From Cliona cf. orientalis (lineage: Eukaryota > Porifera > Demospongiae > Clionaida > Clionaidae), in contig OZ005690.1 in assembly GCA_963930775.1 (NCBI GenBank), forward strand, positions 7,362,225-7,426,224: DNA of 64,000 nucleotides, given 5' to 3'. Positions 3,201-64,000 of this stretch are shown here, piece by piece; the stretch's first letter is position 1; each line of letters begins with the position of its first letter. Below the pieces are notes generated by a model. The model was not told the DNA's origin and did no database searches. It was given only the letters and a program-made list of their open reading frames with translations. The position numbers and the translations under genes were made by a program.

Positions 3201-6200
3201 ACAGCAAAATAAAAAAAACTTTCGAATCATCATGACCGTGAAAGCCATCTAGTATTTAGTATACCTACCATCAGCTCATGGCCAGGCCTTCAAGAAGGCG
3301 AACTTTCATAGCGATGGCTTTCTTGTTGCCCAGTACAGTACTAAAAATTTCACAAAATATGCCTTCCTAGCCAGTATCTTCCTCGAGCTCCAAGATTCAC
3401 CGACTCGGCATCCAATTACTCCGCCCACTTATGGCAATTAACCTTCAACCTCACCATATAGTTCTATAGTACATACGCATAGTACTATTGCAACGCAATT
3501 GTGTAGTAGCAGTACAGTGAATACAGTCCTACTAGTGTGCCCTGAGGTAGTTATCAGACCTTGTATATAAATACAAGGTTTGATAAGTGATTAACCCTCG
3601 GCGCACGCGCGACGGTTACTGTAGTTGGTTTGTCTGTCTGTCTGTTACATGTACCACGCTAGCTGCTACATACCTCATATACGGTATGTACATGTACGTC
3701 TATTAACTCTCAGCGCATGCGCGGTTGCATCATCTGTCGAGCTTCTGACGATCGTGGGATGACAGTGGCTTCTTTTCAACTCTAAGGCTTAGCTGCCTGT
3801 TACCCTTTGACTCTCTGGCTTGTATGCATGAATGGCATTACAGTGCTTAAACCCAAGCGAGTTGCGATAATATTGGACATATACATGTAATATTGCTTAG
3901 TGTACTTCAGTCTTGTGCCAAGGCTTTGCATCACAGTCCTTCAAGTTGAGATGTAGCTAGCTAAGTCCCCAAGAATTGGAAGTTAGGCTACAGTGAGGGA
4001 AGTTGAGTTGATGTCGACACCACAGTGTGGATACAACACACTAGGGTTGTTGCTGCTACATGTACATGTATAAGCCGTTGAACCTTGAATATATAACACT
4101 GCTGTGCAAGTATAACATTAGCCACATCCCTGTCTCGCCCCGGCCCCAGCCCTTTAGCTACCCCCTTTTCTGCATGCAACTGTTGAAGCATGTAGCTAAT
4201 TCCATGCAACGTGCCGAGGGTTTTGTGCTCGAGAGAGCTCTAGTTTATGGAGAAATCTGATTGGTCAGAATTTACAACCATCGTACAAGATCAAATACAT
4301 GTACAAGCATGCCAGTTATGTGGATACCATACATGTATATGTACATGTATATACACACAGTGGTACAGTGGAACTCAAAATTAATATGGTACGTACTGTA
4401 TGTACATACATGTATCTGCATACCGTAAATCGTGAATATTTCATTGTTAAAATATCTTCAGACAGCCTGGCTTGGACGAAAATTAAACACACAAAAATAT
4501 ATGTGCATTATTAATGATAATGTGGTATAGGGTCATTTGTCCGAAAATTATTCAACGTGAAAGTTTATTGCATGAAATATTTTAGACACGAAATATTCGC
4601 AATTTACGGTAGTACATGTCCATGTGTATACAAAACTCACAGTTTTCTGACTAGCTGATTCCTCAAAGTTGGGGGCAAATTTATTTAGTGTGAGACATAA
4701 CTCTGCGTACATAGAACTATACTTGGGTTCATCCAGTGCCTTATCAAATACCTAAATTAACAAGAAAAATAGTCAAATTTAGCTCCATACTAACAGCATA
4801 AAGTGACAAGTATCTTTGCTCCAAAACACTTGAAAAGGATAGCAGTGGCTATCACGTATCACTCTAGTATCCTCTCCTCCTACCGTCGTCACGTCACCGC
4901 CGTCCGTAACGCTGATGTCCATACCGTTCAATCTCCGTACCGTCGCCATTCCAGTACACATGCCAATAACACGACCATGTACCAGTCCTAGCTAGGGGTG
5001 TGGTTATCGACGCTCACCGCCACACCCCCATGGCTCAGTAGGGTACGATACGCGCGTAGCCTGAAGAAGCAGAGTGTAGCCTCGTCCCCATTCTTGAGTA
5101 TATTGATACCTCAGTGTGTTGTTGCTCTTTCAATCATTTATAGCATAGATATAAATATACTTGTATATTATCTATATTTACAGTCAAGATATAGCTATAG
5201 TATTAAAATACGGGTTTTCGCCATCCTTAGTAAATATGGCACCATAGAAGTTTCCAGGGTGACCTATTCTTGGATATAGGGTCAAAACGTAACAAGATGA
5301 CGGAGTGTGTGGATTACACGGTGGTACGTCCATACTATCATCTATCATTGGTACTGATGGTACTATCAGTTCAAGTAATAAACTCATTATCAACTTCTGG
5401 GTCATCCCTTGAGAGAACAAATTATAACACACTGGTATCTATCATTGACAATAAGAACACAGCAACAGATCAAGAGTCACATACTAGTTGATTTTATCAT
5501 AAAATAATTTTATTTGTTGATCTGAGCTACGCTCACATCGCACCCTATATTAAATACTCGGAAGGGGGAGTGTGGCGGTGAACACTTAATAGCCACACCC
5601 CTAGGACTGGTCGTCATGTGTACTATACTGGAATGGCGACGGTACGGAGTTTGAACGGTACGGACATCAGCGTTACGGACTGGAATGGCGACGGTACGGA
5701 GACTGAACGGTACGGACATCAGTGTTTAATACGGACGGCGGTGACGTGACGACGGTAGGAGGAGAGGATACTGGAGTAATACGTGATAGCCACTGGAGTG
5801 ATGTGTGACCTCCAGGGCCACAGTATAAAACATAGAGACATAGTTCATGCATAAACAGTATCCTGCCTGGGCAAGAGAGTACCGTGTGCATGTGCAGATT
5901 GAATCGGTTGCGGAGGCCACACCCCTCATAGCAAGCAACTGCTCTGGCTCCTGCAATGCCATGGCGACGTTTTCACTCTGCTCGAATGTTGTATGACAAA
6001 GAACAGACCTCGCCTCTCACTTCGCTCGAGGCTCGGTGGCTAGCACCAGTGCCTGCTTAGCAGGCCTCTCGAAACGCGTGGCGGTTTCACGCTGATCGTT
6101 CAACAATGCGTCTCTATGGCCCGAGGCATTAAGGCCAGTGGCGTAGGCAGAGGGGGGGGGGGCTTTGGGGGCTCAAGCCCCCCCCCTTTGTCATCAGCTA

Positions 6201-61063: not shown

Positions 61064-61742
61064 AGTGAGAATGTGATAACATTGCCCGTCATTTTCTCAG
61101 TTTCTCACCTGCACAATTACTCCTGTCGGTCATGATCATTACATTGGGCATAAGTATCAGATAACATACTTTCAAGATGTCACATGTGCTGACTTTGTAA
61201 GATTTAAGACTTTAATCTACTGCAAGTGACATGGATGTGGAGCCCATATGATCTACACTATCTGCTGTGATTAACTGTAATTTCTATTCTTTTAAAATTT
61301 AACTACTATTTCTTGTACACCTTAAATGGTGTGTTCACCAAAATTATTATTATTATTGAACCGTTGTAGGATGACAGAACTCAAGGACGTGCCAATGATA
61401 GTGTAGTCAGTGGTATAGAAGATTCGCTAGCAGCTAGCTTGATATTCATAGAACGATTGTGGTAAGTGATCATCATTGACAACTACCCAGGAACAGCACG
61501 TTCATGATTGAGCATGCAATGCACACAACCATTAAAGATAATATTATCCAAGCTATAAATAACCTCCCTCTTTTTGTCGACAACTAGGCACTGTGCGTGC
61601 ACCACGGAAAATGGGCGTGGTAAGTGAGTCGCTGCTCACTTATGTACGCAAATTTGTCACCTTTTTTCTTGTGCCCATGCAGCCTCCGTACCCCGTATCA
61701 TGAAAAAAAATATATAGCAACAAGCGGAGGCGCTCCTGCGCG

Positions 61743-62035
61743 TCGGAAGTGCGCGGACTGGAGCGGCAATGAGCGGACGTACGGACCTGGCCGGCAATGC
61801 GCGGAAACAAGTGGATTTGAGCGGAAATAAGCGGATTAATTCGGAAAGTTGCGGATATGTGCGGCTTTGAGCGGATTATATCGGAGACGCGCGGCAAAGG
61901 GCGGGTCGATGCGGAAAAGAGCGGTCATTGGTGGATTCCAGTGGCGGCTCTCGGAGCGGTGCGGCAATGGGCGGAGTAAGGCGGATTCAAGCGGTTGATT
62001 GCGGAAAAGAGCGGCCACACGTGGCGCGTGGGTGG
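61743..62035 (+). repeat. Array with CGG every 10 bp
   Basis: From 61,743 to 62,035 a CGG (sometimes TGG) starts about every 10 bases, exactly so from 61,801 onward. Examples are CGGAAACAAG, TGGATTTGAG, CGGAAATAAG, CGGATTAATT, CGGAAAGTTG, CGGATATGTG and CGGCTTTGAG. About 28 units are present. The other seven positions vary, apart from a frequent G at the last. A period of 10 is not a multiple of three, so this is not protein coding. A short piece in reverse orientation lies at 62,731-62,762. Confidence 0.9.
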
Positions 62036-62039
62036 AAAA

Positions 62040-62640
62040 CATTGCAAATGCATGGCTTCCTATACAAACATATGGGAAAGCTCCAAAGGGCCATAACCTT
62101 TAATTGTAAGGTGTGAATAAAAAATCTGTCTGATCAAATCTCTAGTTTCGACCCATTCTGCGTGCTCATGTAAAAATTATCCCCCCAAGTGCTCCCAAAT
62201 CCCCCATGAATTAGATTGCGGATGTGGTTGTGATGACGTGTTGTTACCCCGCCCACACAGGAAATGAGGTGAGCTCTTGTGTGGGCGGTGTGGCAGAACG
62301 GCCTTGAAGTGTTTGTGTGTGTTTTGGCCTTGAGGAAGCTGTGTGTTTTAATTGGGATTGATTGTGGGCTTCCGGTGGACATCCAGTGGCCAGTCGGCAC
62401 TTGATTGAGAATGGTGGTCCTTGAGGCACAGGGTGGTGCTGTTTTGGGCGTGGCCTGGCCCCTCCCTTCCGGTTCGGCTTCCAGTCCATTGAGGATATTA
62501 AATGAACACTTCCGGCTCTAGCAGCCACACCCCTGAGACCTGGGCAATTAAAAGGGCCTGGTCACACAACATGCACCTCACTAATGACTCTTTGATGTGG
62601 TTTAGGTGTCATATTCCCCACCTCACGCCCACGCAATTTG
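62040..62640 (+). repeat. Repeat cluster member and long direct repeat, copy 2
   Basis: 62,040-62,212 matches members of the 56-58 kb cluster (GCATGGCTTCCTATACAAAC, TTCGACCCATTCTGCGTGC). 62,213-62,640 matches 59,398-59,770 (GATGACGTGTTGTTACCCC to CCCCACCTCACGCCCAC). It separates the CGG array from its inverted fragment. Confidence 0.65.
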
Positions 62641-62929
62641 ATGGTACCTTAATTATTATTATACCTAGCATTAGCCTCGTCCCCAGGCCACTCCCAATGT
62701 TGCACGCACGCATAAATTAGCGAGTTTCTGGATCAATCCGCTCAAAGCCGCACTTATCCGCTAGTAATCCAACCTATACTCCTAACAAATATAGACTAAT
62801 AGTACATAGTAGAAATGTTACCGTTATTGACGATACATCTATATAGGCGTGTACATCATTATAGATGAATGATATATAGTAGTAGAGCTAACGCGATGCG
62901 GCGCATTCAGCATCGTCAAGCGTTCCACT

Positions 62930-63047
62930 TGAAGAAAAGTAGGAGTGGCTTGGGGGCGGGGCTACTCTGTATTCCAGATCTCCCTAGCTGCTGCAGTCAG
63001 TGGGTCGATTCTTGCTTCTTCTGGCACTCAATTCAGTGGGCACTGAA
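62930..63047 (+). promoter_or_regulatory. Candidate promoter of the KDZ gene
   Basis: TGGGGGCGGGGC at 62,950-62,961 is an Sp1-type GC box about 90 bp before the preferred ATG. No TATA box was seen. Position and composition only. Confidence 0.35.
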
Positions 63048-64000
63048 ATGGATCATCTAGAGGCTGAAGTGTCAAAGTTGAAACAGCAAAGAAAAAGGCG
63101 TAAGCAAGAAGAGGACAGTGTAGCCCTCGGAAATGACCTGGATTGTGAATTGCTGCTGCTCAGACCCAACAAGAGAGTAACTCAGACTAATAGAGAATAT
63201 ACCCACGACACTAGTGTGAGAACAATGAGCAATGTATCCAACGTTAATACTAAAGCTGGAGCTAAAAAGAAGCGTGGGAGAGCACCACTGTGTCGAGACA
63301 CAGTGCCCCTTCACACTTCACAGGCTGCTGGTTGCCACGGTATTGAGCTCACACTGTTTGTTAATACATATTTTTGTGTTGTTTTACATTGTATGTAGAA
63401 GACCAGTGTTTGGACCCTGGTTTTGAGTTTGCGCATGATCAGCTACCAGAGAGAGATGATGCAGGTCAGTGTTGTCTTACTTTGGTATCATAATAATATA
63501 CTGTCAATCTATTGTCAGATTATAAAGTCAGTATGCAGATGTAGCTGATGTGTACTTATGATATAGTTGAATCATCTCTTGTATAGCATCACATAATCAG
63601 ATGATGTTAGATGACCTTCTCCGGAGTATTGATGTGTCCATAACAGATAACCAGCCAAAAACTGAGTGGCGAAAGCGTATGGACACTTGTGATGAGAACT
63701 GGGAAACCTTTCGCAGCAAATTGTTTGAAGAAGTAATCATGTACTCATCAATGCCAGCTGATTCTGTAAGTGATAACCGAGTGCACCAGTACAAGTCATG
63801 TATATAATATTATAAAGGAATTGCTTAATTCCCTTACACGTCTATAGGCTTGTTTCATGTGTGGTGACGAAACGCCTAAAATTCGATGTCACCAGTGTGG
63901 CGCTTCTCAGTACATGTGCCATACATGTGATGCAGCAATTCATAAACACCAGCCTTTACATGATCGTGAAATGTGGTGTGATGGTACATTTCGGGCTATA
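63048..64000 (+). CDS. KDZ-type transposase, 5' exons with zinc-binding module (runs off the window)
   Basis: Exons 63048-63330, 63399-63464, 63587-63765 and 63848 onward join in phase to 227 codons and stay open at the window edge. The N-terminus is a coiled, basic segment (MDHLEAEVSKLKQQRKRRKQ) with a KKKRGR nuclear-signal-like stretch near residue 75. Exon 4 carries C178-x2-C181, C190-x2-C193, C200-x2-C203, H208-x-H210 and H214 followed by EMW, a treble-clef or B-box-like cluster. KDZ (Kyakuja-Dileera-Zisupton) transposases carry such cysteine clusters ahead of the catalytic domain, with the H-x2-P-LH-x4-W pattern seen here. The catalytic part would lie beyond 64,000. An in-frame ATG at 63,000 is an alternative start. 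No inactivating change so far. Confidence 0.65.

Follow-up and report, generated by a model that had tools for sequence, protein, structure and literature searches.

The phased CGG array in the window (the whole 64,000-nt stretch of DNA that was analysed, C2:7362225-7426224) belongs to an old DNA transposon, of which it forms one arm. We think it fairly probable that the array represents the left subterminal region of an IS3EU-type element, now decayed and probably non-autonomous, and that it acted as a multivalent docking platform for transposition proteins. The IS3EU superfamily is pointed to by the tips, by 6-bp target duplications in sister families and by one transposase remnant, and from these we infer the superfamily of the window copy itself. 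Relatives were searched within the same genome, which comprises 217 Mb in 149 contigs.

Register and core of the array

The chain of GG dinucleotides that runs from 61744 to 62014 has 28 members, 25 of them as CGG and three as TGG, and 26 of the 27 steps from one GG to the next are exactly 10 bp, the remaining one being 8 bp. The sequence-only reading had described about 28 CGG or TGG units held in a 10-bp register, and this description is confirmed. In its best 28-unit frame the array has 21 CGG, against at most four in the best 28-unit frame of 40 Markov-1 windows; upon 2000 Markov-1 shuffles of the array itself, CGG did not exceed seven and the longest GG run was 6, against 24 observed. The autocorrelation check proposed at lag 10 gave the expected peaks, with values of 0.44-0.47 at lags of 10, 20, 30 and 40, against 0.20-0.31 elsewhere up to lag 40.

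It had also been claimed that the CGG phase alone is kept while the spacers are free. The second half stands within one array, where spacers vary between units: at phases 4-8 of the 24 units of 61782-62021, pair identity is 0.24-0.33, near random. The claim needs correction in two respects, since the real core is GCGG (G in 20/24, C in 21/24, G in 24/24 and G in 24/24 of these units) with A favoured next (15/24), and since spacers at the same place are largely conserved across the other genomic copies. Identity between neighbouring spacers of the window array was 0.26, compared with 0.304 (sd 0.035) after reordering of the units, and it was 0.41 at a unit distance of 7. Tandem Repeats Finder reported nothing at the array when it was run on the window, because the core alone repeats. 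A plain 10-bp satellite or minisatellite was therefore rejected on the basis of this result and of the neighbour identity of 0.26; full units are not near-identical, and the array is no ordinary minisatellite, in agreement with the sequence-only reading. Elsewhere in the window, an ACGG-rich tandem repeat with a unit of 52 bp and 1.9 copies lies at 5627-5726.

The array does not continue past 62014. The TGG-like units found there belong to a different interspersed repeat that begins at about 62015, and the first 46 bases after the array (62015-62060) have 34 other matches in the genome. Further to the right, 62218-62652 matches DNA close to the array copy on C19 at 95% identity. The features of this region are collected in Table 1.

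Table 1. Features at and beside the array, in window positions
Feature	Positions	Strand	Remarks
Left subterminal array of IS3EU-like transposon (superfamily inferred), tips lost	61718..62014	+	core GCGG every 10 bp
Other interspersed repeats interrupting the array	62015..62652	.	genome matches
Inner-array fragment in opposite orientation, beside the KDZ insertion	62731..62769	-	
AGTAATC, probable 7-bp target duplication made by the KDZ insertion	62763..62769	.	
Left part of nested 8.6-kb KDZ transposon, outside the array element	62770..64000	+	continues to C2:7433622

Copies, mirror arms and a nested KDZ transposon

Searching the genome with 61700-62060 returned an inverted array at C2:7433666-7433896 (minus strand, 86% identity), two arrays each on C17 and C19, and arrays at C2:5.947 Mb and on C5; a further copy on C7, whose tip is a variant, was found by tip search. 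Five CGG in register, searched as an exact pattern, have 39 matches in the genome, compared with eight for the reversed control, and these 39 lie in the window array and its right partner, at C2:5.947 Mb, and on C5, C17 and C19. The genome-wide search for CGG arrays in register, which the earlier reading had put forward as a check, did find arrays elsewhere.

The C17 copy is complete. It is 1,653 bp long with mirror arrays at both ends, its arms are 81% identical over 436 bp, and a block found 210 bp apart at 80% identity is a segmental duplication. The C19 copy measures 4,555 bp and has other repeats inside. The C17 and C19 copies finish on both sides in TATGGTGGCCCAGAAGGGTCATTTCC or a near variant, and at one end each on C2 (5.947 Mb) and C5 the array likewise begins with TATGGTGGCCCAGAAGGGTCATTTCC or a near variant. 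The tips of the window copy have been lost: a search of both strands of the window, with up to 2 mismatches allowed, found no IS3EU-like tip. On C10 a tip stands without a following array, and at C1:14.43 and 14.58 Mb (L045 and L046) two facing tips lie 32 bp apart with almost no interior, that is, as a minimal or collapsed element; both of these places look like duplicates.

The sequence-only reading took the array to be possibly the subterminal part of a mobile element and to have a probable inverted partner at 62.73 kb. The kind of structure was guessed correctly, but a different array, which lies outside the window, is the partner. The underlying observation was accurate: the reverse complement of 62731-62762 does contain GTGCGGCTTTGAGCGGATT, which is also present at 61859-61877. 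Nevertheless, we rejected the 62.73-kb fragment as the opposite arm, as it is inner-array sequence that adjoins a nested KDZ transposon. The true opposite arm is the inverted array on C2 given above, about 9.4 kb downstream, and the two mirror arrays are 85.6% identical over 243 bp. In a search for short direct repeats flanking the window arrays, two 7-mers were obtained, neither of them convincing.

We read this arrangement as an insertion of the KDZ (Kyakuja-Dileera-Zisupton) transposon into the inner array of the window element, followed by an inversion, which explains the inverted orientation of the 62.73-kb fragment. In the rearranged right flank outside the window, AAGTTG-AGTAATCC resembles a KDZ right end with the 7 bases AGTAATC after it, and just beyond the window end the nested element matches KDZ transposase (E 2.8e-13) and CxC3 (E 1.4e-16). 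The KDZ ends occur six times, which corresponds to three copies. Pieces on C16 are 97-99.9% identical (99.7-99.9% for the long ones), and the long pieces in the fetched parts of the C1 copy are 97-99% identical. The C1 copy has a 7-bp duplication, TCTCAAC, and is not in a CG-rich array of this kind, while the C16 copy sits in a CG-rich array and has no clear duplication. Two of the three KDZ copies thus lie in CG-rich subterminal arrays of other elements and the third in a CpG-rich site, beside a frame that we take to be piggyBac-like; with three copies only, a KDZ target preference is possible. The KDZ frame beyond the window (L039:6463-7278, minus strand) ends in a Cys cluster that resembles the CXXC zinc finger of TET3. 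A PDB sequence search gave E 0.013 to TET3 CXXC for this cluster, there was no CXXC match in Pfam or NCBIfam at E 1, and the C16 copy is without this stretch.

Tips, target duplications and sister families

In the accessible text of the two papers used here, TA..TA termini are given for complete IS3EU families, together with target duplications that are usually of 6 bp (Kojima 2023, PMC10045372), and IS3EU of rust fungi has TAYGG..CCRTA with 6 bp (Kojima 2025, PMC12730594). Termini as described there are seen in our system, where the CGG-family copies on C17 and C19 and the sister families have TA..TA termini (TAYGG..CCRTA), which the window copy lacks; the 6-bp duplications are found in the sister families. 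Inverted repeats at the ends are present in the C17 arms and in the window arrays. The tip, allowing up to 3 mismatches, has 120 matches (56+64) in the genome and one (0+1) for the reversed control, and among the tip matches listed, most belong to a sister family with GGGCCATGTCC. A shorter tip core (G/A/T at one place, 1 mismatch) gave 635 matches against 21 for the control; these are matches and not ends, because some sister arrays hold internal tip copies. Such a second, internal tip copy (TATGGTGGCCGAGACGG) lies within the subterminal array of a sister family at L089, L090, L095, L096 and L105.

Target duplications were scored with TA taken as part of the element. In the sister families, exact 6-bp duplications were found in 12 of 17 pairs, while in the mispaired control 2 of 272 agreed, and both of these came from a pair of loci with a common flank, probably a single locus that was duplicated. 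Seven GGGCCATGTCC copies comprised four with an exact 6-bp duplication, one off by 1 and two without a match. For the CGG family the flanks agree at five of the six duplication bases on C17 and at four of six on C19, exactly in neither. A TA target duplication as in Tc1/mariner was rejected, given that the bases outside TA are 6-bp duplications.

A 9.2-kb element on C4 (L076, C4:4593300-4602800) has the same tips and an exact 6-bp duplication, and recognisable rva_4 pieces are present in its raw frames, including a transposase remnant with E 8.8e-5 over 36 profile positions and 1 stop. With 137 rva_4 matches in 217 Mb, the chance odds of one falling in 9.2 kb are about 0.006, and rva_4 is presumably the IS3EU transposase domain. 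The same element also carries a protein-kinase frame (Pkinase E 1.7e-12). No transposase was found in any CGG-family copy, and the 7-kb stretch around an open rva_4 frame (L081) has no tip pair and one 3-mismatch match only.

What distinguishes the elements described here is the long phased subterminal array, which is not mentioned in the accessible text of PMC10045372 or PMC12730594, both of which also lack the word ‘subterminal’. The literature searched contained no paper combining IS3EU and subterminal, and no precedent for the array was recognised there.

Arrays that differ from the CGG array in motif and spacing are found in at least three further families whose tips are related. At 16 of 20 left ends chosen by tip, a lag exceeded the 95% null of the largest z; the remaining four did not exceed it (L084, L098 and L099, and L100, which equals it). 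The GGGCCATGTCC family has lags of 22, 29, 7 and 15 in all 14 ends examined, for which the shuffle test covered lag 10 only. In a GGACACTATCC-type family CCGACG is spaced at 14-15, 20 and 34, and in the GAGAGG family CCGGA recurs at 7 and 22, as seen at two ends of which one was tested. Less secure are a borderline spacing of GCCGCC at 10-11 and 21, from a single end, and, on C16 with a less similar tip, the palindromes CCGCNNGCGG every 20-21 or 42 bp. The helical repeat of DNA is 10.5 bp, and the 10.0-bp step of the CGG array is near this value but drifts against such a helix. Moreover, with sister spacings of 7/15/22/29 and 14/20/34, the contacts on one DNA face that were proposed earlier cannot hold for all of the families. 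A protein with a family-specific motif and spacing would be the simplest common rule.

Proposed role of the arrays and competing explanations

In the docking model, which is our best guess, each 10-bp unit would offer one short GCGG(A) contact, with about 28-35 units per end mirrored at the two ends. Numerous molecules of transposase, or else of an accessory protein, would dock cooperatively on the arrays, and the docked arrays would let both ends be recognised and paired, the near-universal tip only being cut. Since the families share a near-constant tip but differ in the motif and spacing of their arrays, family specificity would come from the array; binding, cooperativity and specificity are all predictions of this model.

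IS3EU is already known, and so are subterminal repeats in hAT elements, which have 8-bp duplications. In Ac/Ds, a hAT system, the terminal 200 bp hold many short CGG-bearing sites, and the AAACGG subterminal repeats bind Ac transposase cooperatively; the accessible text of that source does not speak of a strict 10-bp phasing of these sites, and the likeness is one of working only (PMC3260210). In Hermes, BED domains bind subterminal repeats, and Tol2 needs cis sequence beyond the tips according to a title cited in the same accessible text (PMC10368747). Hermes and Tol2 resemble our elements in their requirement for cis sequence beyond the tips, but their repeats are few and irregular and they belong to a different superfamily. 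If the docking model is true, the tip would serve for cutting and the array for recognition, as two separate jobs, the co-evolution of transposase and DNA address would become testable, and there would be a concrete cis-element model for IS3EU, on whose end requirements the literature searched gave nothing. A broader version, tentative and rather doubtful, is that IS3EU here uses one tip and a per-family phased array as a fast-changing address code for its own transposition proteins, and that KDZ, with a putative CXXC-like CpG reader, lands in such CpG arrays (two of three copies).

Whether CGG resists mutation was a preset check, for which nine arrays were aligned with 20 or 21 consensus units in the chain; the main count uses eight, C7 being left out. 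In the eight arrays, 37 of 403 cells in the motif (CGG) columns were off consensus versus 64 of 929 in the spacers (p 0.18), and all nine arrays gave 53/486 and 118/1121. CpG cells were changed in 28/239 cases in the motif and 10/63 in the spacers (p 0.39), with C>T accounting for 15 of the 28 motif changes. The last G changed less than non-CpG spacer cells (2/134 versus 54/866), with p 0.025 in one of several comparisons, uncorrected, and it was changed in 6/161 cells with C7 included. CGG columns therefore show no resistance to change among copies, as neutral decay after insertion would give, and the sequence-only reading, which had named CGG mutating as fast as the spacers as a refutation, does not pass this test in the form in which it was set. 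Due to the fact that copies may have decayed unconstrained after insertion, this test says little on constraint in an active family. Past constraint while the family was active is suggested by the comparison of units within one array, where spacers are near random and GCGG is kept. Selection for a protein contact, as the sequence-only reading proposed, is thus plausible from the sequence as a past constraint, but it is not reflected in a slower CGG rate among copies.

These counts also bear on a neutral tandem array, in which whole-unit duplication and drift would leave CGG as a functionless relic of history or mutation bias. Such an array is consistent with the unslowed change of CGG among copies, with the C17 block duplication and with length differences between copies. 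These differences are divisible by 10 in 80 of 150 pairwise comparisons (94/197 with C7), which are not independent counts, and they agree equally with whole-unit turnover and with selection for phase. We nevertheless regard a neutral array as unlikely, given that spacers are near random and yet a C-to-T-prone CpG core has been kept (CGG in 21/24 and GG in 24/24 units), and that other families with related tips also have arrays. Nucleosome positioning or curved DNA would dispense with a specific reader, the 10-bp alternation of G/C and A/T easing wrapping or bending. Artificial nucleosome-positioning sequences, (A/T)3NN(G/C)3NN, have this alternation, and so do the pooled units of the array, with G/C at positions -1 to 2 and A+T of 0.73, 0.79 and 0.79 at positions 3 to 5. 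However, the array keeps a specific G, C, G and G and not mere G/C, and sister families have other periods, whose spacings (7/15/22/29 and 14/20/34) give no 10-bp alternation, which makes this explanation quite unlikely.

The location of the window KDZ between two mirror arrays, and of the C16 copy in a CG-rich array, could suggest that the arrays are simply the ends of the KDZ transposon between them. We rejected this explanation as highly improbable. KDZ bodies that are 99.7% identical lie in wholly different flanks (another array on C16, none such on C1), KDZ has its own inverted ends of 104 bp and its own 7-bp duplication on C1, and the C17 copy carries CGG arrays without KDZ.
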